From: Crocosphaera sp. | Lineage (GTDB): Bacteria; Cyanobacteriota; Cyanobacteriia; Cyanobacteriales; Microcystaceae | Reading direction: 5' to 3' | Assembly (NCBI GenBank): GCA_030065735.1 | Contig: JASJDD010000027.1 | Coordinates: forward strand, 1 to 35,439 | Length of the DNA: 35,439 bases | The notes under the pieces: model-generated | The model's input: the letters and a program-made list of their open reading frames with translations, nothing else | What the model was told of the DNA's origin: nothing | The model's database searches: none | In this document: piece by piece, positions 1,959 to 14,104 of the stretch | Layout of the letters: each line of letters begins with the position of its first letter | Position numbering within the stretch: position 1 is the first letter of the stretch | Position numbers and translations under genes: made by a program

Positions 1959-4900
1959 CTAAGTCATATAAAAAATTTCTGCTTTTAAACCAAAGCGAAC
2001 ATATTCATCTAATAATGCTTTGAGGTTGTCTTCCCGTTGGGGTTGTTTCAGTCGGTTGAAGACTCCCATTTCTGAACCATCTTCAGCACCCCGACGAATT
2101 TCTGAGGGACAATTTTGACTAAGTTGAGCATAGGCAGGTTGATTGTAGTCTGTTGTGGTATATTTAGGCTCTACTCTCAAGAGTATGGAATTGATCTCGG
2201 TTACACCCTTTAAACCTTGGTTAAGGACTTCCCATTGTTCTCCTTGATTATGCGATCGCAAGACATCACCGGTAGCTGTCCCGGCCCAAATTGTATTATC
2301 TTGGAGGACAACGGTTAAAACGGTAATTTGTCGATGGGATAAACTTAAGTTCAGTGGTTCCCAGCGATCGCCGTTATTAGAGGAACGAAAAATGCCATTA
2401 GCTGCGGTTCCAGCAAACAGATAATGACAAGTAAATTCGACTTCTCCTGATAAAGCTGGACAGAATGGTGCATCGAGCATTAGGGTTTTGGTTGAGAGGT
2501 CGATTGATTGAATCATTCTTGTTTGATCGCCAATGGTAATGGTGCTACCCTTTTTAAGTTTTGTGGCAATCTGTTCGTCTATAACCACTAACTGACGATC
2601 ATTGACGTAAACCCTCCCTATGATAGTTTGAATTGCTAAGGAGGTAATTCTGCTTGGGGTTAAACCGTCACTAACAGATTGCCAGTGTTTACCGTGATCG
2701 AGAGAACGAAAGACAAATCCTGCGCTTGTAGCAGCAAAAATGCGGTCATGGGAGTCAATCGCCAAAGCTGTGATCTGTTGATGGGTTAAACCCTTATTTA
2801 TCTGATTCCAAGCTTCTTTTGTCTCTGACCAACGAAATATCCCCTCATCAGTCCCTGCAAAGATTCTTCCCTGAGAATCCATGGCCAACGCTGTGATCTG
2901 TCCAGGTAATGGCTGATCATTCATCTTTATCCAGGTTTCTCCTAATTCTTGTAATCGCCAAACATATCTGTTGCTTGTCGCTACTAAGCAAATATCTCTT
3001 TTTTCTGAGTTTTCTGATTCTGTCATGGTGGTCTGTTGAAGAGACATTGTCTCTTGTAATCGTTGAGGATTTGCATAAGTAATGAAGGCAGTAATATCAG
3101 TATTAATTAAGGGGTTAATTTGTTTTTTTTCTCCATTAATTATTTTAATTGTTTTGGGTTCAATTTTTTCCCATTTTTCTGAATTTTTAGTAGGATATCG
3201 ATAAATTTTAGACCCCATTACTCCAGCCAAGAAGATAGTTTTATTATTACTTTTGTGGTAACTTCCTAAAGCAGTAATAAACTCAGTTTTTAGCTTAGTA
3301 CTTTGCCAAGTTTTTTTACTTTCTTGCCATTGTAGAATACCTTGATCGGCAGTTCCTAAAAACATAAATTTCATTATAGAGAGAATATAGCGCATCAAGC
3401 TATAGGGAGCATCCCATTTTTGTAAAAGCATCACCCAAAGTAATGATAAACTAAGGGTTTCAGTACCTCTTAAAAAAGCTAACGTCCAAAATTGGAATGC
3501 TCTCAAACTATAATATATTGATTCTACTAACATTTTTAGTAGAAAAGTTTGCCAATAGTAACTATTTTTAATAGCAAAGGCTGTGATTGGTGCAGATAAA
3601 CTTGGTAATTCTTGTAGAGCTAAATCCGGTTGACAACGATAGCGTGGTGGCGTGTAAGAACCGAGAGGAACATAACAAAAGCGTAAACAACCCTTTTGTT
3701 GATTAATGACTGAAACTACATCATTAAATAGACTATCACTAGCTTCTAAAAGACGAAGATTTATCATTCCTAAAACAGTGCTTCTTTGAATATCTACTTT
3801 TGTTCCCAAGGCGTTTATCGCTAAAAATTCATCTTGTATATCTAAGGAGTAATTGAGAGAATTTTTACTGATAATACTATCGGCGATAACTAATTTAGGA
3901 ATAGAGTCAGCCAGATTAATTGAACCAATAATACTATAATTAATCTTAATTTCTAAGTCACTGTTATCAAAAGTTAAGTCGTTCTGTTCTGAAGGCAAAC
4001 AGTAGGACTCACACAGCCCTTCTTGGTTATTATTTGTCTGATTATTTATGTCTGATTTTTGACGTTGATAAACTTCTTCTTGAAAAGCACACCATAATTT
4101 TTCCCACGCTTCTATCAGATAGTGATTCAATTTTTCTAAGCGTTGTTTCGGCGGAAGCTTATTACTAAATCCTAGCTTAATTATTTTAATAATTAAAGAG
4201 AAAAAATAAATTACGAACAACAAAAAACCACTATTATTATCATTTTCATTATCTTGATCAGGCTCAAGATTATACTGATAATTATCTTCTACAACTGGGT
4301 AATTTTTGATAGCTTCAACTGTCAACCCGCCGAAGATTTTTGGAACAACAGTACAATGATTAATGGTCAGTTTTTTGAGATAACCAGGTTGCACCTTTAA
4401 CTGATCTTCAATGAGTAATCCATCCAGCAAAAGTTCCCCTGGTTGAAATTCTGGTGAACGAGGATCGTTGGGATTAATTTCACCTTGAATTGAGAGACTC
4501 CCTCCCAGGTGGGGTCGATAACCATCAGCAGCTAATAATTGTAATTTTAGTTGGAGTTTTTTACTATTAGGAATAATCAGGTCTAGATTCCCTGTATAGG
4601 TTTGGTTATCTTTAATAAGAATCACGCCTGTTTTGAAATTTTCGCCATTAGTGATGATAAAATCGAGATTTTTTTTATCATTTTCATTCTCTTTTTTAGC
4701 CGTTATACTATCTGATTGAGGTTCAATCGGTACAGTACCAATATGTTGCCAACTTTGTCCTGTTTCACTATTCTTAACATCAGTATTATTAAAAGGTTTC
4801 CATCCTTGTCCTCGTTGATAAGAAGCAAAAAGCATTAATTTTCTTCCTGGGTATTGACTGAGATCAATTTCCCAATCAGACTCTAAAGAAATTACCCGTC

Positions 4901-7409
4901 CTAAAAGATCAACCGCTTTCCCTTTACTTATCTTAATGAGCGCAGATTGAGGATTAGTAATGGTTAGATTATTAGGGAGAACACCATGTTTAAATTGAGA
5001 AGATATTTGTTGAGGTTTAGCTACTAGGTTTCCTCTGGAATCAATTTGCAGTCTAGCTAAACTTAAAGATTGATTTTGATTGCTTGAATCATTGGTTGGG
5101 TAAACTTGAAATTCCCAATCTGGTCCAAAGTTTTGTTGACGATAAGCAATGGCCAGAATCACAGTTTGATTTCGATATTTTCTCAATCCTCTTAATCGAT
5201 AATCTTGTTCTAGAGTAATCGTTTCTCCTTCTTTATCAATTCCTTGTCCTGCTGTTATGGTCACACTGCGATCGCCGATTTCTCCTGTTACTTCTAATCC
5301 TTTAACCACCCCTTCCACAAAATTAGGACGCAAAGGTTTTTCGACTTCCAAGTTTTCAATCGTAATTTCAGGAACTTTTAATTTAGCTAAACGAATATAA
5401 CGATTAATGGGGTAAATTTCCTCATTTTTAGCATCTTCATCTAAGAGAATATATAATTGCCAATTTCCCCCGCTAGGAACCTCAGAATAAGTAATAGCTA
5501 ACCAAATTGTTTGTTTTTGATATTGTCTTAAATCTAAGGAAATATTACGATCAAGAATAATCACCCTTCCTAAATCATCAATAGCTGTTCCAGGAGTAAC
5601 AATAGCTTCGAGAATGTCCGAGGGAGTAATGACTGTCAATCCTTTAACAATACCCGGTTGAAAACGAGAATAATTAGTATTATTTGGTACAGTTTCAATA
5701 TGATCATTGATATCCAAACTAAAGCTAGTTAAACGAATATAAGTATCATCAGGATAATTTTTTTCTTGTTGATAGGAAATAACATTAACCTGATAGCTTG
5801 GTTCAAATTGATTAATCCAATAGGATAAAACGACAAATAAGGGTTGTTGAACGGGGAGCGAAGCTTTAATTTCATCTAAATTAATAACAATATTTTCCTC
5901 AACATTAATAGCAATTCCCTGTTTATTAATGGCTAAACCAGGGGTAATAATAAATTCTCTGCTACCAACACTTGTCTCTGGTGAATCAACAGTTAAACCC
6001 TTAACAATCCCAAATTGAAATGTCAAACGAAGTTCTGATGATATGGGTAAATTACTGACTTTTTGCTTGGGAATTTCTAAACAAGCAAGAGGAATAAATT
6101 TTTGCTCAAGAATAGCTTGCCATGCTATTACTGTACCATTCCAAGTTTGCACAGCATCCAATAAGGGATTAGCCTTACCCGAACGCGCTTTTATAACTTC
6201 CCAATAAAGGGAAGGAAAAAAGGAATCGGAGGGTTTTGGTAAGGTTTCTGAGGGAATCTCAGTCATGGTTTCGGTGCGATTGTAGGGGCCACCACCGAGA
6301 TCGCTACTAAATCCATAGCCATAGTTAACTGTCACTTGACTGGGAGGGTTTGGCTCTAGAAATACCATCTCTCCGTATTCGGGATCAACAGCAACTCTTT
6401 TTACTGACTGAGGTGAATTTCTCAGAGAATTGGATAAATTATTGTCTTGATTGAGTTGATTAATCAACTCTTTTTTACCATTTTGAAAAAGTTTAGTAAT
6501 GAGAATTTCTTCTGGAGAAATTGGTTGAGGTTGACCATTAATAAAAATCTGAAAAACTGGATTTTCTCCTTGATAAACCGGATAATTAGCAGACGTTTCT
6601 AACTGTCCGGGTACGTTAATTGCTTCGGCTAAGTGAGTAATATCGATTTCTGGTTGAGGTAAATTAAACAGAGGAACAGAATCGCCCAAGGGACTAAAGG
6701 TGTAACAACGTCCCTGTAGATCACTGTCTGCTAATTCCACTGGATAAGCGTTGACTCCCACCAAAGGATAACTTTGTAATCTCCAGAGAAATAAACCAAG
6801 TTGGCGAACATCATATCTACCCTGATTGCTATTGGCCTGACCAATTTCAACGGAGTAAGAAACTTGTTGTTCAAAGGGAGAACCAATTAAATTAATGGAC
6901 TGAGATGCTTTGAGATCGACCGTTGTATTCTGAGGACGTAAATGGTTAACATTTTGACTGATAGCCAAACGCTCATAAAACTCTACCACTCTTCCTCGCC
7001 ACCCACTTACATCCCTGGCCAGTTGTTCAAGGACCGGTGCAGTGCCTTTTCTGCGTCGATAGGCGATAGTATTGGCAACGTAGGCGCGGGTTTCTTGTTC
7101 TCCATAACCCCCAGTTTGCTGGAGTTGAGAGGAATTGCTGTTTCTTATCCCCACCCCACTTACCCCCAAAAGATCCCCAATATAGGGAACAACCCAAGGG
7201 TCACAGGTTTCAATAAACCAATTTTCGTAAAGATCCCCGATATTCGTTTCCAGGATGTTTAATTCCCGTTCCATGATGGACAGGAGTTGTTTTAATTCGT
7301 CCTGATTTTGAGATTCTTGATAGTTTCTGGCTAAAAAACGCTCTAACCCCCCTTCTCGGTAGATGGCGGGTAGGAGTTCATAAAGACGGTTGCTGGATTC
7401 GGTATTCAT
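1959..7409 (-). CDS. Giant tail-protein-I-like baseplate protein with repeat, membrane and propeller segments (1816 aa)
   Basis: The N-terminal ~170 residues (RLYELLPAIYRE; DPWVVPYIGDLLGV; YRRRKGTAPVLEQLARDVSG) look like the phage tail protein I / P2 gpI-type domain of eCIS baseplates. Residues ~465-870 hold four ~100-aa repeats, each starting near G(I/V)VKGL.V and containing ITPG.AID..GR-like blocks. A strongly hydrophobic stretch at ~1060-1080 (FLLFVIYFFSLIIKIIKLGF) looks like a transmembrane helix. A second hydrophobic stretch at ~1302-1335 comes from an inserted MITE-like element. Residues ~1350-1748 carry about seven Ycf48/BNR-like blades (FAGT..GIFRS...G..W). The ATG overlaps the stop of the upstream gene by 4 bp (ATGA), so translation is probably coupled. 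The family is far smaller in phages. Membrane anchoring of the baseplate is inference, suggested by thylakoid-anchored CISs known from Anabaena. Confidence 0.85.
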   Translation of the reverse strand: MNTESSNRLYELLPAIYREGGLERFLARNYQESQNQDELKQLLSIMERELNILETNIGDLYENWFIETCDPWVVPYIGDLLGVSGVGIRNSNSSQLQQTGGYGEQETRAYVANTIAYRRRKGTAPVLEQLARDVSGWRGRVVEFYERLAISQNVNHLRPQNTTVDLKASQSINLIGSPFEQQVSYSVEIGQANSNQGRYDVRQLGLFLWRLQSYPLVGVNAYPVELADSDLQGRCYTFSPLGDSVPLFNLPQPEIDITHLAEAINVPGQLETSANYPVYQGENPVFQIFINGQPQPISPEEILITKLFQNGKKELINQLNQDNNLSNSLRNSPQSVKRVAVDPEYGEMVFLEPNPPSQVTVNYGYGFSSDLGGGPYNRTETMTEIPSETLPKPSDSFFPSLYWEVIKARSGKANPLLDAVQTWNGTVIAWQAILEQKFIPLACLEIPKQKVSNLPISSELRLTFQFGIVKGLTVDSPETSVGSREFIITPGLAINKQGIAINVEENIVINLDEIKASLPVQQPLFVVLSYWINQFEPSYQVNVISYQQEKNYPDDTYIRLTSFSLDINDHIETVPNNTNYSRFQPGIVKGLTVITPSDILEAIVTPGTAIDDLGRVIILDRNISLDLRQYQKQTIWLAITYSEVPSGGNWQLYILLDEDAKNEEIYPINRYIRLAKLKVPEITIENLEVEKPLRPNFVEGVVKGLEVTGEIGDRSVTITAGQGIDKEGETITLEQDYRLRGLRKYRNQTVILAIAYRQQNFGPDWEFQVYPTNDSSNQNQSLSLARLQIDSRGNLVAKPQQISSQFKHGVLPNNLTITNPQSALIKISKGKAVDLLGRVISLESDWEIDLSQYPGRKLMLFASYQRGQGWKPFNNTDVKNSETGQSWQHIGTVPIEPQSDSITAKKENENDKKNLDFIITNGENFKTGVILIKDNQTYTGNLDLIIPNSKKLQLKLQLLAADGYRPHLGGSLSIQGEINPNDPRSPEFQPGELLLDGLLIEDQLKVQPGYLKKLTINHCTVVPKIFGGLTVEAIKNYPVVEDNYQYNLEPDQDNENDNNSGFLLFVIYFFSLIIKIIKLGFSNKLPPKQRLEKLNHYLIEAWEKLWCAFQEEVYQRQKSDINNQTNNNQEGLCESYCLPSEQNDLTFDNSDLEIKINYSIIGSINLADSIPKLVIADSIISKNSLNYSLDIQDEFLAINALGTKVDIQRSTVLGMINLRLLEASDSLFNDVVSVINQQKGCLRFCYVPLGSYTPPRYRCQPDLALQELPSLSAPITAFAIKNSYYWQTFLLKMLVESIYYSLRAFQFWTLAFLRGTETLSLSLLWVMLLQKWDAPYSLMRYILSIMKFMFLGTADQGILQWQESKKTWQSTKLKTEFITALGSYHKSNNKTIFLAGVMGSKIYRYPTKNSEKWEKIEPKTIKIINGEKKQINPLINTDITAFITYANPQRLQETMSLQQTTMTESENSEKRDICLVATSNRYVWRLQELGETWIKMNDQPLPGQITALAMDSQGRIFAGTDEGIFRWSETKEAWNQINKGLTHQQITALAIDSHDRIFAATSAGFVFRSLDHGKHWQSVSDGLTPSRITSLAIQTIIGRVYVNDRQLVVIDEQIATKLKKGSTITIGDQTRMIQSIDLSTKTLMLDAPFCPALSGEVEFTCHYLFAGTAANGIFRSSNNGDRWEPLNLSLSHRQITVLTVVLQDNTIWAGTATGDVLRSHNQGEQWEVLNQGLKGVTEINSILLRVEPKYTTTDYNQPAYAQLSQNCPSEIRRGAEDGSEMGVFNRLKQPQREDNLKALLDEYVRFGLKAEIFYMT
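3397..3512. mobile_element. MITE-like element, copy A (100 bp at 3405-3504 plus flanking duplication)
   Basis: The element is bounded by GGGAGCATCCCATTTTTG (3405-3422) and the inverted CAAAATTGGAATGCTCTC (3487-3504); 15 of 18 positions pair. The flanks AAGCTATA (3397-3404) and AAACTATA (3505-3512) look like an 8-bp target-site duplication with one change. It aligns without gaps to the 100-bp copy at 9560-9659, with about 11 differences by eye. Element plus duplication add 108 bp, so the host frame is kept. The read-through peptide contains TLAFLRG and LSLSLLWVMLL. It has no room for a transposase, so it would be mobilised in trans. Confidence 0.8.
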
Positions 7410-10400
7410 AGGTTCTCTACCACGGTTAGCTTAATATTGCTAGGTTGAAGTCTTAACAGTTGACTCGGTTGAACTTGGTTCTTGGCAAAATCCCAAAAGG
7501 CAATGGAAGCATCGAGAAATGGCTGTAAGGTGCGACTAGCATTCAGGCGATGGAAAAAGTCTAAATCCACCGCCTCAACCCCCGTAACCGACTGAATCGC
7601 AGCGATCACTTCCGATTGGGTCACAGGTTGACCAAAGGCGCGTTTTTCAAAGGCAAAGATGTCTAGGAGTTTTTCACGGATACTAGCTTCAACAATGGGG
7701 GTTTGATAGCCTGTTATTAGCTTGACTTTGGCTTCGATGCTGAAGAAAAGTGCCTCAAAAGAGGATATCTGCACCGGTTGTACGGAATCCCTGACTGCAT
7801 TGATCCCATCCACTAAACTCCGATAGAGGGCGGATTCTGAGGGAATTGGTTCCCCCCCAATTCCTGCGATAGTCAGATGCAAAATCTCTGTTGTCCCATT
7901 CCAAAGCGGAGTTGCTTGAGCTTTAGCAATACCGGCAAAGGCCTGAGCAAAATCCTCAAAATCTTGCCGTGAGACAATGCGATCTAGGGTGCGAGTGGTG
8001 GCAGGAACCGTACTACGAGCAGACTCTAGAGATTCCCCATCTGCGCCTCCAGTTGCGGGTAGAGGATTGATGACATCCTGAATATTTGGCGGGCCAGTCT
8101 TTTTCAAGGCAATTTGTTCCGCACCCACATTACCCCCTAATCCCAGGCCACTGCGATAGGTGGCGGTGATGTTTTCCTGGCCACTGGGTAAGCGGGACCC
8201 TCGATAACCATCCCCAAAGGTAATGCTGGTGGTGCCATCGTCTTCAATTCTCAGGATATAGCTGCGATCTTGTTGATTGAGGGGATAGAGGGAGGGAACT
8301 TGTTGCCATTCCACCTCATTGACATACACTTGCAGTGCGCTGTCGCTACCAGTGGGGGTTGCAGAGGCAATATGGGTTAGGGGAAGTTGAGTCAGGGTAA
8401 AGCTTTGATTGCTTAATATTCCGTTGCCACTACCGAGAATTTCGCTGACGGTTTCCCCATGATTGGCTTCGACTACATTGGCATAAATGGTGACAGTAGC
8501 GGGGTCGTAGCTATATTTTAAGGCTTTGTCGAGGAGCAGTACGGGTAGGTCTTCGTTATCCGGTGGAAAGTCGATTAAGGCGATTTCGCTAACTAGGGGA
8601 TCTTCTTCGGCCCCTGGATATAAGTTAATGTCATCGGGGGTTGTGGTTATTAGTTTGCCTGAGAAGTTATTACGATTTAAAACCTCCCATTCGGTTTCAT
8701 GTTCATTAATTATCTTGGGTACTGTTACGACTCTTAAAAGATCATCAAATTGCAGTTCTACAAAATTGAGTCTATCTGAGGAAAATAAAATACCAATACC
8801 ACCTACATAAAGGTGATTTTTTTCAATGAGAATTGCTCGCACATCTGTATTGGTTAATCCTATACTAACAGAGTCCCATTGCCAATTATTTTGGTTTTTG
8901 TTGAGTCGGAATACTCCTCCTGTGGCGGTTCCTACCCAGAAATTTTCTTGTTTTTTATCCAATGTAAAGCAACGAATTTCTAAATCTTCAAGTCCCTGAT
9001 TAACTGGTTCCCAACGTTTATTATTATCAGAATTATTCTGACTCCGAAAAACTCCACTACCTGCTGTACCAACAACGATATAATCCTCAACATAATCCTC
9101 AACATAATCCTCAACTATAGCGATAGCAGTAATATAGAGATTTTCTAACCCGGTATAAATGATAAAAGTCTTTTTTTCTAGTCCTGGTTTAAAGGGAGTA
9201 TTAACAGTTAATTCTTGATCATTCTTGCTAACACTGACCACAGTGCGAATTTGACCATCAGACTCAATCTGATCACCAGGATTTAATTCAGTCAAAAAGT
9301 TGCTGTCTTTTCCAGTGACGGTGACACCATTACTAGAAATTGTTCCACTACCTGGCCGAGTCTTGTTCCAATTTTCCCAAGTCACTCCATTATTAATTGA
9401 ATAAAAGATGCCATTTCCTGCTGTCCCCACCAATAACTTGTCATCTTGACTTAAGATTACTCGAATATCCTGTTTTGTAAGTCCAATATTTACCCAAGTT
9501 TGCTCCTGAGATGAATACTGAAAAACACCAGCGTTTAGGGTTCCAGCAAAGAGAAAATAGGGAGCATACCATTTTTGTAAAAGCATGACCCAAAGTAATA
9601 ATAAGCCAAGGTTTTCAGCACCTCTTAAAAAAGCTAACGTGCAAAATTGGGATGCTTCCAGAAAATATTGCTCCTCCTCTGTATTATTATTTTGACTACT
9701 GGTTAATATTTGTACATTGGGTGGTGTTTTTTGTAGCGTAATGGTTTGCCAAGTTTGACCTTGATCGATTGAAGAAAATAACCCCTCTTTTGTACCTACA
9801 AAAATTTCATCTTCCTTCCTATCAATTAACAAACTTTGAATATCTTGATTAGTTAATCCCTTAATTGTATGTTCCCAAGTTTGTTCTTGATCAAAAGACC
9901 GAAAAACCCCTGACTTTGTACCAGCAAATAAATAGAGACTATCATCAAAACGATGGGAGACTAGGGTTTGCACATTGTTATAAATTAATCCTTGATTACT
10001 GTGTTCCCAGTAAATTTCTGATCCAATATTTTCTGTTTGAACCCACTGCAAAAGTCCATCTTGTGTTGCTGCTAGAAGACGATTTTCTGAGTTAACTATT
10101 AAAGATTGAACCGAGCGATCGCCTAAACCAATATTCACAGATTCCCATAACTCTCCATTAAAACGAAACATACCTTGCTCTTCGGTAGTAGCGAAAAGAT
10201 CGTTATTATTAGTATCTACAAATAGTTTAAGAATTTGAAGACTATTAAGATTGTTATTAACTGCTTCCCAAGTATCATTAGTCTCATTTAAGAGGAATCG
10301 AAAGACCCCACTAACAGCAGTTCCTGCATACAGAAAACGTTTACTCGACTGGGATGAACCTACTATTACTAAACTAACAATATGCTTATCACTTAGATCA

Positions 10401-13400
10401 TAATTCATCTCTTGCCAATCATTTCCATCATATCTAAATACTCCATTTTTCTGCGTTCCTGCAAAAACATCACCCGTATTTTTGTCAGCTACTAATGTTA
10501 AAATATTTTCTGTAGCTAAGGCTGGTTCACTCCAGTTTCTACTATCATTATTAAAGATATTATGGATGAAAATTCCCTGATTTGTTGTCCCTACTATAAG
10601 AGAATTATTGAAAGAATTAAATACTAAAGCTTGAACATTTTGAATTTTATCATTGCTAATCTTTTCCCATGTTCCTGAAGCTAAACTTTCGTTTAAACGA
10701 TACACACCATTTTCTGTACCAACAAAGATTTTATTGGCCTGACCCCCTGTTGTTCCTGGGTTAATATCAGTAGCAAAACTCACATTTAGGGAGATTTCTA
10801 AGATATTACGTTCACTATTAGGTTTCTTATTAACTATTCTAGTTTGTTCAGAGACGGTAACAGTATCACCCAATTCTAAGTTTGCGAATGGTTTTTCTTC
10901 ATCTATTTTTCTTGCTTGTAATCTTGTTTGAATACTATTTAAAGTAGAATTAATTTCTTTAGTATAAATTGCGATTGAAGTAATATTAGTATTATCTAGT
11001 GTTTCTGTTTCTGTGGTTATTTGTTTCCAAGTTTTACCTTGATCATCTGATTGCCATAAGTGATTTTCTATGACTGCAAATATTTTTTTATCTGCTTTTC
11101 TAAAAGCAAGAATTTTAATGTCTTTCTCATCTAAATCTGATGAGAAAATCTGCCAATTACGAGTTTTAAAAATACCTCCAACATTGGCTTTTGCTTGAAT
11201 ATGTTTACCACTAATAATAACCGTTTTTTGCTCTTCTAAACCATGAACATATTGCTCAAGAAAAATATTTTTACCTACTAGGGGATCTTGAAAAATATTT
11301 GTTTTTTGGACAGGGACAGTTAAGCTAATTTCTGCTAAAGGTAAATCTTCACTTTGAGTAAGAACTAAGGTAGTTCTAGGATTAAAGTTTACCGATTTTT
11401 GGGATTCATTATTATCAATATTACGATCGCTAATAATCTGGGTGATCTTTGTATCTAAGGTAAATCCTTGACGCTGTTCTGAAAATACTTTTTCAACTTT
11501 TGCAGGAAAATTATCGGGAATTTCATTCTGAAAATCTTCACTTTCATCAACTAATAATATCCAACTTTCTGCTAATATATTTGGATAAAGTGTATCGAGG
11601 TCAATTTGATTATTTTGGGGATAAAAATTAGGCCATTCTCTTTGTTCTTCTCCCTCAGAATTATTATCGTTCTCAGAATTATTATCGTTATTATCAATAT
11701 CATCAATTTTCTCTTGGGTAAACCCAGAAAATTTTGCACTAGCTAATACTTGTTCTCCTTGATCAATAAGAGCAATTGAAGTTATATTTTTGACAATGGG
11801 ATTATCCTCTGTTTTTTTCCATTTCCAACTATTATTTGATTCTTCTCCACGCCATACTCCTTCATCAGTTCCAGCAAAGACATAATTTTTGTTTTCATGT
11901 TTGAATATTTTTAGCGATCGCACAGATTGATTAGATAAAATCATCACCCAAACTAACCATAAATTAAGGCTTTCAGCTTCTATTAAAAAAGGTTTTAAAA
12001 AAGGCAACATACAAAATTGATATACTCTCTCATCATAAATTTTTTGAAAATCTAGAATATTATTAATTTCAGCACGCCAAACACCATCATTAGTACCAGC
12101 TAAAATATATTTTTTATTATCTTCACCTGTATAATTGGCTAAAGAGTAAACAATTTTTTCTGCTAAAAATCCATTTTGTGGATTCCAGTTTGCTCCGTGA
12201 TCATCTGAGTAATAAACCCCTTGATCAGTTCCTGCAAAAATCCTCACAGAACCACTGATTAAATTTTTTCCTTCTAAAGATGAATCCAGTTCATCATCTA
12301 GTGTAAATGTTTGAGTTATTTGTGTAATTTCTTTTCTGTGCTGACCAACAGTCAAACTATCTCCTTCTTGAAGTGTTCCAGAAAGATTATTGATTGTGAT
12401 AGTTGTTTGGTCAACATTGGTAATATTTCCTGAAGCTTGATTTGAGGTGTTAAAATTTTCTGGTACTTCAAGATCAGACGAAAAAACTTCGTTAATTTCA
12501 ATGATAGTGCTAGTAATTGCATCTATTTTTCTAGTAGTTCCTTCAACTATAATTACATCTCCTTTTTTAAGGCTCTTACTTAATTTTTTAACGGTTATAA
12601 TTTTTCCAGGCTTATCAATTTCAGTAATTTCTCCTGTAATCACATCTGATTTTTTTAATTTTTCGGGTATGTTTAATAACGCATAAATAACTCGATTAGG
12701 TAACCCATTTAACCGTTCATAATTTTGAGGATTATCTAAGTTATTGGGAATTTTAGAAGATGACCAATCCTGTCCCTGATTAATCGTACGATAAATATCA
12801 TCATCTGTACCAGCAAAAATATATGAAGTGTTATCAATCTCGTAAGTTAATAAGGAACGCACCACCACATTAGGAATACCTGTATTTACACTAATAGTTT
12901 TGGGGTCATCGCTGTCATCTTTTTCTAGTCTCAAATTGCCTAAACCAATAGGACTCCAATTTTCTCCATTATCTTTGGAGCTAAATACGCCACCACCGGC
13001 TGTTCCTGCTAATAAATGTCCCTTGGTTTCATTAATAACTAATAACGTTTGGATATTAAGATTAGTGAGGCCGCTATTAATCATTTGCCAAGCATTATTA
13101 ACGCCCTCAGCACGAAAAACACCGCTTCCGTCAGTGCCAGCAAACAACAATGTATTACTAACCGCCAGACATAAAATATCTTGATTCGGTAAACCCAAAC
13201 TATTCCCTTGCCATGCAACTTTTTCGGCTGTTTCTGCTTTTGGATTAGAAGTTACAAATACCCCACCTTTTAATTGAACACCGGGTGATTGGCGTTTCAA
13301 ATCATCAGGAGTATCTTGCCAACGAGGTGCATTATTACCAAATAACCTAGCTGGTTGTCGAAAGGCGAATAATTTGGGGTTACGAAGCTCACTATCAGAC

Positions 13401-14104
13401 TTGAAATTATAATCCTTTAAATCATAATCCCAAGTAATTCGGGTGGCATCTAATTCGGGTAATAATTCAACCGATTTTAAAAGTAAGGCAAATTCCTTAT
13501 CTTCTTTGTCTTCTTTTCCCGTCAAAAGTACCCAATTTCCTGGAGATAATTGAGTTCCTATCCCTGCTAAATAAAGTTCACGAGTGGTGGCAATGATCTC
13601 TTGAGGTTTGCTTAAACGGGGTTGTAGACCGTTCCAATTAGGATTAGCGACTAATTCTTCAGTGGTTTCAAAGAGTTGGGGTAATTCTCCTTCTCCTGGA
13701 ATACTCATCACTTGAGTCCCTTGAGGAATGATAACAGGAGGAGAACCACCGGGTTGGGTTTCCAAGGTAAACGCGAGGTAGGTACTAGCAGAAACCCCCG
13801 GTTTAAGTTCATAGCCGATTAATCGTGCTAATTCGATGATAGATTGACGTTCTGTGGCCGTTGTCAGATAACCTTCATTGGCTATACGTTCTTGATAGAA
13901 AGTGAGAACATCAGCAACGATCGCCCAAGCATCGAGAAGGGCGATGGCTGGATCATCGGGATCACGAGTTTTCAGACTAGGTAGAGTTGAGGATAATTGA
14001 CCTAAGAGATCCTCAAGAAAAGAACCATAGTCACCCACCCGATAACTTAAAGCAGATAAACCAGGACGGTTACTAATTTTTTTGGGTTTAGGGATGTCGT
14101 TCAT
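7406..14104 (-). CDS. Giant baseplate J-like protein with a huge Ycf48/BNR-type propeller insertion (2232 aa)
   Basis: The N-terminus (RDPDDPAIALLDAWAIVADV, ERIANEGYL, LARLIGYELKPGVSAS) and C-terminus (from ~1920: ITFGDGYRGSRLPSG, GGNVGAEQI, NPLPATGGADGESLES) are typical of 'putative baseplate assembly protein' / baseplate J (T4 gp6-like) members of CIS baseplates. Between them, at ~320-1775, lie about nineteen blade-like repeats of the form LFAGT..GVFRS....W and several small beta modules of the form L..GD.I...QTR.I. Two hydrophobic in-frame inserts, at ~692-730 and ~1482-1517, derive from MITE-like DNA. A VEDY triplet repeat is at 9081-9116. Both ends overlap the neighbouring genes by 4 bp. 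Ordinary members are roughly 600-1000 aa, so the propeller block is an exceptional expansion, perhaps a cage or adhesive surface around the baseplate (inference). Confidence 0.9.
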   Translation of the reverse strand: MNDIPKPKKISNRPGLSALSYRVGDYGSFLEDLLGQLSSTLPSLKTRDPDDPAIALLDAWAIVADVLTFYQERIANEGYLTTATERQSIIELARLIGYELKPGVSASTYLAFTLETQPGGSPPVIIPQGTQVMSIPGEGELPQLFETTEELVANPNWNGLQPRLSKPQEIIATTRELYLAGIGTQLSPGNWVLLTGKEDKEDKEFALLLKSVELLPELDATRITWDYDLKDYNFKSDSELRNPKLFAFRQPARLFGNNAPRWQDTPDDLKRQSPGVQLKGGVFVTSNPKAETAEKVAWQGNSLGLPNQDILCLAVSNTLLFAGTDGSGVFRAEGVNNAWQMINSGLTNLNIQTLLVINETKGHLLAGTAGGGVFSSKDNGENWSPIGLGNLRLEKDDSDDPKTISVNTGIPNVVVRSLLTYEIDNTSYIFAGTDDDIYRTINQGQDWSSSKIPNNLDNPQNYERLNGLPNRVIYALLNIPEKLKKSDVITGEITEIDKPGKIITVKKLSKSLKKGDVIIVEGTTRKIDAITSTIIEINEVFSSDLEVPENFNTSNQASGNITNVDQTTITINNLSGTLQEGDSLTVGQHRKEITQITQTFTLDDELDSSLEGKNLISGSVRIFAGTDQGVYYSDDHGANWNPQNGFLAEKIVYSLANYTGEDNKKYILAGTNDGVWRAEINNILDFQKIYDERVYQFCMLPFLKPFLIEAESLNLWLVWVMILSNQSVRSLKIFKHENKNYVFAGTDEGVWRGEESNNSWKWKKTEDNPIVKNITSIALIDQGEQVLASAKFSGFTQEKIDDIDNNDNNSENDNNSEGEEQREWPNFYPQNNQIDLDTLYPNILAESWILLVDESEDFQNEIPDNFPAKVEKVFSEQRQGFTLDTKITQIISDRNIDNNESQKSVNFNPRTTLVLTQSEDLPLAEISLTVPVQKTNIFQDPLVGKNIFLEQYVHGLEEQKTVIISGKHIQAKANVGGIFKTRNWQIFSSDLDEKDIKILAFRKADKKIFAVIENHLWQSDDQGKTWKQITTETETLDNTNITSIAIYTKEINSTLNSIQTRLQARKIDEEKPFANLELGDTVTVSEQTRIVNKKPNSERNILEISLNVSFATDINPGTTGGQANKIFVGTENGVYRLNESLASGTWEKISNDKIQNVQALVFNSFNNSLIVGTTNQGIFIHNIFNNDSRNWSEPALATENILTLVADKNTGDVFAGTQKNGVFRYDGNDWQEMNYDLSDKHIVSLVIVGSSQSSKRFLYAGTAVSGVFRFLLNETNDTWEAVNNNLNSLQILKLFVDTNNNDLFATTEEQGMFRFNGELWESVNIGLGDRSVQSLIVNSENRLLAATQDGLLQWVQTENIGSEIYWEHSNQGLIYNNVQTLVSHRFDDSLYLFAGTKSGVFRSFDQEQTWEHTIKGLTNQDIQSLLIDRKEDEIFVGTKEGLFSSIDQGQTWQTITLQKTPPNVQILTSSQNNNTEEEQYFLEASQFCTLAFLRGAENLGLLLLWVMLLQKWYAPYFLFAGTLNAGVFQYSSQEQTWVNIGLTKQDIRVILSQDDKLLVGTAGNGIFYSINNGVTWENWNKTRPGSGTISSNGVTVTGKDSNFLTELNPGDQIESDGQIRTVVSVSKNDQELTVNTPFKPGLEKKTFIIYTGLENLYITAIAIVEDYVEDYVEDYIVVGTAGSGVFRSQNNSDNNKRWEPVNQGLEDLEIRCFTLDKKQENFWVGTATGGVFRLNKNQNNWQWDSVSIGLTNTDVRAILIEKNHLYVGGIGILFSSDRLNFVELQFDDLLRVVTVPKIINEHETEWEVLNRNNFSGKLITTTPDDINLYPGAEEDPLVSEIALIDFPPDNEDLPVLLLDKALKYSYDPATVTIYANVVEANHGETVSEILGSGNGILSNQSFTLTQLPLTHIASATPTGSDSALQVYVNEVEWQQVPSLYPLNQQDRSYILRIEDDGTTSITFGDGYRGSRLPSGQENITATYRSGLGLGGNVGAEQIALKKTGPPNIQDVINPLPATGGADGESLESARSTVPATTRTLDRIVSRQDFEDFAQAFAGIAKAQATPLWNGTTEILHLTIAGIGGEPIPSESALYRSLVDGINAVRDSVQPVQISSFEALFFSIEAKVKLITGYQTPIVEASIREKLLDIFAFEKRAFGQPVTQSEVIAAIQSVTGVEAVDLDFFHRLNASRTLQPFLDASIAFWDFAKNQVQPSQLLRLQPSNIKLTVVENL
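9081..9116. repeat. Three 12-bp tandem repeats encoding VEDY x3
   Basis: The 12-mer TAATCCTCAACA occurs three times in tandem, with the last base changed in the third copy. It encodes a VEDY-VEDY-VEDY run in the linker before a propeller blade. The length is a multiple of three, so slippage here keeps the frame. Confidence 0.85.
9552..9667. mobile_element. MITE-like element, copy B (100 bp at 9560-9659 with a perfect 8-bp target duplication)
   Basis: The ends are GGGAGCATACCATTTTTG (9560-9577) and the inverted CAAAATTGGGATGCTTCC (9642-9659), pairing at 15 of 18 positions. AGAAAATA lies exactly on both sides (9552-9559 and 9660-9667). Deleting the element and one duplication restores EEQYFLFAGTL, the canonical start of a propeller blade, which is direct evidence of insertion into an existing gene. 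The added 108 bp are 36 codons with no stop, encoding a hydrophobic peptide with LGLLLLWVMLLQKW. An 8-bp duplication is known in several IS families, including ISL3 and IS66; the parent is not determined. Confidence 0.88.
11914..12029. mobile_element. Decayed relative of the 100-bp MITE-like element (copy C)
   Basis: The block TCATCACCCAAA...CTTTCAG...TATTAAAAAA...CAAAATTG follows the same order as copies A and B but is diverged and about 15 bp longer in the middle. One end (CAAAATTGATATACTCTC, 12012-12029) still resembles the terminal repeat. The other end is hardly recognisable and overlaps a HIP1 site at 11914. I see no target duplication. It reads through as QFCMLPFLKP and LNLWLVWVMIL, again just before a FAGT blade motif. 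The boundaries are approximate. Confidence 0.5.

Follow-up and report, generated by a model that had tools for sequence, protein, structure and literature searches.

An open-frame 100-bp element, probably an ISKra4-type MITE, in CIS genes of Crocosphaera

The window analysed here, 35,439 nucleotides of a Crocosphaera sp. contig, carries on its minus strand a gene of 2232 aa (7406..14104) encoding BNR/propeller-like repeats and a baseplate J domain. The gene matches TIGR02243, the profile of a putative baseplate assembly protein, at 280.7 bits (cut-off 155.8) and stays open across a 100-bp element with inverted ends (e1, 9560..9659). How such an element came to lie inside a reading frame, and whether the peptide that it adds is put to use by the host protein, are the questions raised by this locus. 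A first-pass annotation had regarded e1 as a mobile MITE-like element domesticated in frame, adding a hydrophobic segment that might have been kept as a membrane anchor. The mobile nature of e1 is borne out below by empty sites, by other copies and by insertion sequences sharing its ends, while domestication and anchoring are not.

Three insertions in two adjacent CIS genes

Element e1 is read on the minus strand in the frame here called A1, as (E) followed by 32 residues. It is bounded by the terminal inverted repeats GGGAGCATACCATTTTTG (9560..9577, plus strand) and GGAAGCATCCCAATTTTG (9642..9659, minus strand), which mismatch at 3 of 18 positions, and is flanked by two copies of a perfect 8-bp target-site duplication, AGAAAATA (9552..9559 and 9660..9667). 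The imperfect ends, the perfect duplication and the gain of 108 bp (36 codons, from 100 + 8) without a stop were thereby confirmed as first annotated, and excision of e1 with one duplication gives EEEQYFLFAGTLNAG, restoring the blade motif as claimed. When the whole window was scanned for perfect 8-bp repeats spaced by 60-300 bp and enclosing 18-bp inverted ends of at most three mismatches, e1 was the single place found, and the same architecture appeared in 0 of 200 simulated windows with the dinucleotide transition frequencies of the real one. Short length (100 bp), 18-bp inverted ends and the lack of a transposase gene are features expected of a MITE, as are dispersed multiple copies, empty sites and a duplication of fixed length. 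The latter is 8 bp and matches at 7 or more of 8 positions in 29 of the 60 copies examined, as counted by hand with one-base slides included.

The window holds three insertions in two adjacent CIS genes rather than one element. The neighbouring gene, of 1816 aa (1959..7409, minus strand), encodes propeller-like repeats on the C-terminal side and scores 61 bits against CIS13_fam, far under the cut-off of 370. An end-pattern search of the window's own genome revealed in it a second 100-bp copy, e2 (3405..3504, minus strand), with the orientation and frame of e1 and likewise a 32-residue peptide. It is identical to e1 at 89 of 100 positions, and its flanks AAGCTATA and AAACTATA retain a duplication match of 7/8. 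The third, e3 (about 11936..12027, minus strand), is an old and diverged copy in the 2232-aa gene, again in the e1 frame, with an internal 12-bp insertion and the peptide QFCMLPFLKPFLIEAESLNLWLVWVMIL. It was found by an A1-peptide profile at E 1e-6; its DNA score is 79.3, while 1000 shuffles of the stretch never exceeded 36.8, and its peptide score is 64, while the highest of 2000 shuffles was 49. One peptide frame is thus shared by e1, e2 and e3. Elsewhere in the window's genome a 2068-aa gene (G000:C268, L256 2514-8717) carries an old A1-type copy (E 0.002) and matches TIGR02243 weakly (18.6 bits against the cut-off of 155.8); this locus is possibly a second CIS-like cluster.

The history of insertion can be followed in orthologues. 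The e1 site is empty in all three orthologues of the 2232-aa gene examined (L248, L250 and L253), where the alignment is good on both sides and a gap falls over e1. The e3 peptide is also absent from these three, in a surrounding stretch that aligns poorly. Conversely, L248 has a copy of its own (residues 529-556) opposite a gap in the other three proteins, and L250 and L253 share a copy at residues 966-991 and 1002-1029 that L248 lacks. Insertions in CIS genes are found at differing sites in different species, and further CIS genes of the genus have copies. No clean empty site was found for e2, since the four orthologues of its gene hold a different stretch there. Beyond the CIS genes, an insert at residues 67-100 of a second host gene (G018:C1) is missing from a Pseudanabaena plasmid homologue. 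For a CHASE2 host (insert at 78-111) the matches in all 18 plasmid records start at residue 96 or later and so yield no empty site, and for the G064 host the matches are partial in 28 of 29 records.

One could suppose that e1 is not mobile and represents an ancestral segment or an internal gene repeat that relatives have lost, and the propeller-like part flanking e1 is indeed itself repetitive. This reading is scarcely credible: the same 100 bp occur in unrelated genes and at sites outside genes, with different 8-bp duplications, and insertion sequences have the element's ends, so that the dispersed copies and shared ends already contradict it. The first-pass annotation had reasoned that a segment carried by all homologues, without copies elsewhere, would speak against mobility; instead, orthologues are empty, and copies lie elsewhere in e1's own genome and in other cyanobacterial genomes. 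That e1 is a mobile MITE-like element is thus supported.

Ends shared with ISKra4-family insertion sequences

A transposase with matching ends had also been proposed as a check, and insertion sequences of full length that share the element's ends were found. The clearest lies in the same genus (L322 242-2051): 1810 bp with perfect 18-bp ends shared with the MITE, around a transposase that matches NF033572 (ISKra4) at 253.9 bits, above the cut-off of 205. No duplication was found at its flanks. A longer element of 2944 bp (L126 207-3150, in G018) shares these perfect 18-bp ends and is flanked by the 8-bp duplication AAGTTTTT, which is also perfect; its ISKra4 transposase reaches 201 bits, just below the cut-off, and it also contains an IS630-like insert. 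Another match to this transposase, 80% identical, is enclosed by ends with one mismatch each and without a duplication (L323). The 100-bp element thus has 18-bp ends identical to those of ISKra4-family insertion sequences and an 8-bp duplication like that of L126, and differs from them in having no transposase and in its stop-free frames.

Since full-length ISKra4-family insertion sequences share its ends, the 100-bp element can be assigned to the ISKra4-type MITEs. We consider it very probable that it is a non-autonomous element of this type, kept in genes as a tolerated passenger. From the shared ends and the 8-bp duplication we infer mobilisation by an ISKra4 transposase, which would act on GGGAGCATCCCA(T/A)TTTTG ends and so move the MITE. 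At E 1e-10 no ISKra4 transposase was detected in the window's own assembly, which is 79.7% complete, and among nine genomes of the genus only G007 gave a match at this threshold. The exact 21-base end was not found in the viral contigs searched.

Several observations concern the relatives of these elements. The 1810-bp element carries a passenger ORF of 142 aa (L322 1556-1981) without an NCBIfam match, and a piece of a similar ORF is present in L069. Two 2944-bp copies with differing flanks reside in G018 (L126 and L127); the IS630-like insert is seen in L126 and the length is equal in L127, and it seems that the element moved or underwent recombination once the IS630-like sequence had interrupted it. 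Sister MITE forms of 98, 99, 100, 132 and 143 bp (L072, L073, L079, L061, L144, L130-L138) have the same ends and other interiors, several of them with perfect 8-bp duplications. With the 8-bp duplication added, the forms of 98, 99, 132 and 143 bp give lengths that three does not divide, and they therefore shift the frame.

An IS4-family partner was considered, given that an IS4 transposase lies beside the ends at L069 and L075, but was rejected: full IS4 copies (L082, L083) have ends of their own, TGACAACTTAAG, and the two kinds of element at L069 and L075 are merely in or beside each other. The IS4-family element of L083 (G000:C142), with an open transposase frame and TGACAACTTAAG ends, sits between the two halves of an integrase-like gene and is unrelated to the MITE.

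Reading frames, host proteins and the fate of the peptide

The 100-bp length has a simple consequence. As 100 + 8 = 108 bp, or 36 codons, insertion never shifts the downstream frame. In 11 of the 15 tabulated e1-type copies of 100 bp, each strand has one frame without stops, called A1 for the strand read at e1 and B1 for the opposite one, and in some copies a second opposite-strand frame, B2, is open too.

Whether a gene survives insertion was assessed by excising the element in silico from the 60 copies examined. Among the 29 with a duplication of at least 7/8, 13 lie within genes of at least 150 aa, and all 13 of these young in-gene copies leave the gene open, ten through A1, three through B2 and none through B1. 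Under random orientation and phase the chance of this outcome is 1.6e-6. One more young copy, G305:C215, which is not among the 13, may break a 143-aa frame. From the uniformly open genes it follows that gene-breaking insertions seem mostly to be lost. The idea that all in-gene copies share one orientation had to be abandoned, since B2 is used in G002:C61, G018:C1b, G305:C292, G296 and G194, and B1 in G003:C84. RNA structure predictions for three copies gave hairpins from the inverted ends on both strands and nothing to explain a frame preference.

The bias towards A1 recurs in searches across genomes. Searched against 50 genomes of the family at E 0.01, the A1 peptide matched 39 times, in 18 of the genomes, and 25 of these matches fall in stop-free frames 235-2237 aa long, whereas the B1 peptide matched 41 times, also in 18 genomes, with a single match in a frame of this kind (288 aa). 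At E 0.001, a sample of 388 genomes from the order yielded 46 A1 matches, spread over 25 genomes, and 25 of these matches lie in frames of at least 235 aa; B1 matched in 25 genomes, with no stop-free frame that long, and B2 gave 34 matches in 20 genomes, two in long frames (624 and 765 aa). The independent in-gene A1 insertions of the family set number 22 (19 at E 0.001) when the orthologous pairs G064/G060 and G004/G003:C149 are counted once each and G067:C75, one of the 25 with its insert at residue 5 of the open frame, is excluded. G068:C334 (152 aa) was left out of the in-gene counts, and e3 falls below the threshold of these peptide searches.

The proteins that receive the element are diverse. 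In a Pfam scan of 28 hosts, A1 and B taken together, 10 had no match at E 0.001, and the others included WD40 repeats, STAND/AAA ATPases, TPR, mCpol, CHASE2, an Eco57I-type methylase, alpha/beta hydrolases, FGE-sulfatase/GUN4, a phage-tail/CIS protein and CIS baseplate proteins. The NACHT and CHAT hosts come from other families of the order. On plasmid p1FD4 of Microcystis aeruginosa FD4 one host is annotated as a single gene for a SAV_2336 N-terminal domain-related protein, with an ISKra4 transposase gene within the same 8-kb stretch. PDB searches with two host proteins matched only conserved domains away from the insert. It should be kept in mind that cyanobacterial proteins in public records can include transposon peptides.

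The membrane anchor would require a hydrophobic helix of some 19 residues, for which a hydropathy of 1.6 is the usual transmembrane threshold. On this simple scale the highest 19-residue mean is 1.56 in the e1 segment and 1.32 in the e2 peptide, and neither reaches that value. The e1 peptide does contain a hydrophobic run, but with 11 residues it falls short of a clear membrane helix. Charged residues lie inside, and 18-residue stretches have a low helical moment (0.09-0.30). Within the 2232-aa protein no other 19-residue stretch is more hydrophobic than the e1 peptide, by a narrow margin (1.56, with the next at 1.53), and the common frame and orientation of the three copies in the window, with those in other CIS genes of the genus, could be taken to favour a hydrophobic peptide kept for tethering the CIS baseplate to a membrane. 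The same peptide is, however, inserted in WD40, ATPase, methylase, mCpol and other non-CIS proteins, CIS insertions occupy different sites in different species, and in the G004/G003 CIS pair the insert has a dN of 0.21 against 0.09 for the host (p 0.004, Fisher test for non-synonymous changes). A domesticated anchor is therefore very improbable, and the thylakoid-anchor reading of e1, as judged from its sequence, is not supported. An AlphaFold2 model of 236 residues around e1, made without an alignment, had a mean pLDDT of 44 and was not used.

In Anabaena, as described in the parts of the source drawn on here, two features are held responsible for anchoring in the thylakoid, a Cis13 helix and a Cis12 extension that touches the membrane, perhaps via an amphipathic helix; Cis12 has no predicted transmembrane domain, and the Cis13 helix is given as restricted to filamentous cyanobacteria (PMC8894136). 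The Cis12 extension is a published observation that speaks for an anchoring role of the inserted peptide. A separate stretch of the 1816-aa protein, residues 1058-1083 (4161-4238, minus strand), is strongly hydrophobic, with a 19-residue hydropathy of up to 2.25, and is a better candidate for a membrane segment than the MITE peptide; it gave no match to the A1-peptide profile.

Selection on the peptide itself was sought in copies whose length is exactly 100 bp, namely 18 A1 copies in genes, 5 B copies in genes and 16 others. The 18 in-gene A1 copies have accumulated 87, 82 and 91 changes at codon positions 1, 2 and 3, and their dN/dS-like ratio of 0.72 is close to the 0.80 of the 16 copies outside genes. 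Neither measure gives a clear signal of purifying selection on the peptide. The hosts of both insert-sharing ortholog pairs are under purifying selection, with dN/dS of about 0.37 (G064/G060) and 0.30 (G004/G003). In the latter, the insert evolves faster than its host as given above, while the synonymous/non-synonymous comparison alone gives p 0.13. In G064/G060 the insert is at least as conserved as the host, on three changes only (one non-synonymous and two synonymous). Without clear codon constraint on the peptide, and with an insert that outpaces its host in one CIS pair, the term "domesticated" is not supported. Most likely the peptide is neutral or mildly costly to the host protein and is a tolerated passenger.

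Pure tolerance does not obviously predict so strong a preference for A1 over B1, as this antisense frame is also free of stops in most of the copies concerned. Among the 13 young in-gene copies, B1 is open 12 times and never used (chance about 8e-4, by our own arithmetic and post hoc). Together with the 22 in-gene A1 insertions against one of B1 in the family set and two of B2 in the order sample, and with old copies that still look hydrophobic by eye, this could point to an exaptation at the protein level, with the A1 peptide serving as a module that is generally useful or packs well, such as a buried helix or strand, and being positively selected wherever it is inserted. We consider this improbable, as the codon positions give no clear signal, the insert of the G004/G003 pair is relaxed, and B2 is used in three of the six young in-gene copies where it is open, so that A1 is not the sole frame kept. 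A broader proposal, also rather unlikely, is that the ISKra4 MITE is a spreading transposon-derived peptide module, from which protein-level selection picks the hydrophobic A1 frame and for which CIS baseplate propellers are a favoured landing place. If true, the MITE would supply ready-made inserts for modular cyanobacterial proteins.

For the tolerated passenger, the following course of events is very probable. Each insertion adds 36 codons and leaves the downstream frame intact, and about a third to a half of in-gene insertions read through as an extra peptide of some 36 residues, because each strand usually offers one stop-free frame and one of the strands sometimes offers two. Insertions that broke the gene were mostly lost, and readable ones persisted, often in large modular proteins such as propellers, AAA/STAND-type ATPases and CIS baseplate proteins. 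The two adjacent CIS genes of the window have retained three such insertions.

Comparison with known systems

Short elements with open frames have been described in other bacteria. The Correia element of 107 bp, ERIC and the Yersinia YPAL are open-frame MITEs that can be set beside the 100-bp element by description, and in-frame gene fusions are reported for several of them; MITEb and MITEe of Anabaena PCC 7120, likewise compared by description, provide a cyanobacterial precedent (parts of PMC2229807 and PMC10969869). In the portions consulted, the 2024 review regards in-frame MITE fusions as not unusual, with Rickettsia as the extreme case, and similar protein evolution in other prokaryotes as conceivable (PMC10969869). 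In the literature on cyanobacterial MITEs, ISKra4 MITEs and Crocosphaera MITEs, judged mostly from titles, no description of the 100-bp element was recognised.

The closest likeness is to the Rickettsia palindromic elements (RPE-1 to RPE-3) and those of Wolbachia. In the passages used here these are 100-150 bp long, have inverted ends and an open frame and lie in frame in many unrelated genes, and the one host enzyme tested, Gmk, is still active (PMC10969869, PMC2229807, PMC3767692). In-frame insertion in many unrelated protein genes is equally found for the 100-bp MITE, which by its behaviour may be said to work like an RPE. The relevant part of PMC2229807 gives the RPE duplication as '?' and names no transposase; here, in contrast, 8 bp are duplicated, and there are insertion sequences of full length that share the ends. 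Frame-keeping repeats within genes are known best from Rickettsia. In the present case inverted ends, target-site duplication, a probable family of transposases, empty sites and numerous independent insertions can all be seen at once, and for this reason the question of whether such peptides are neutral or useful can be tested in cyanobacteria.
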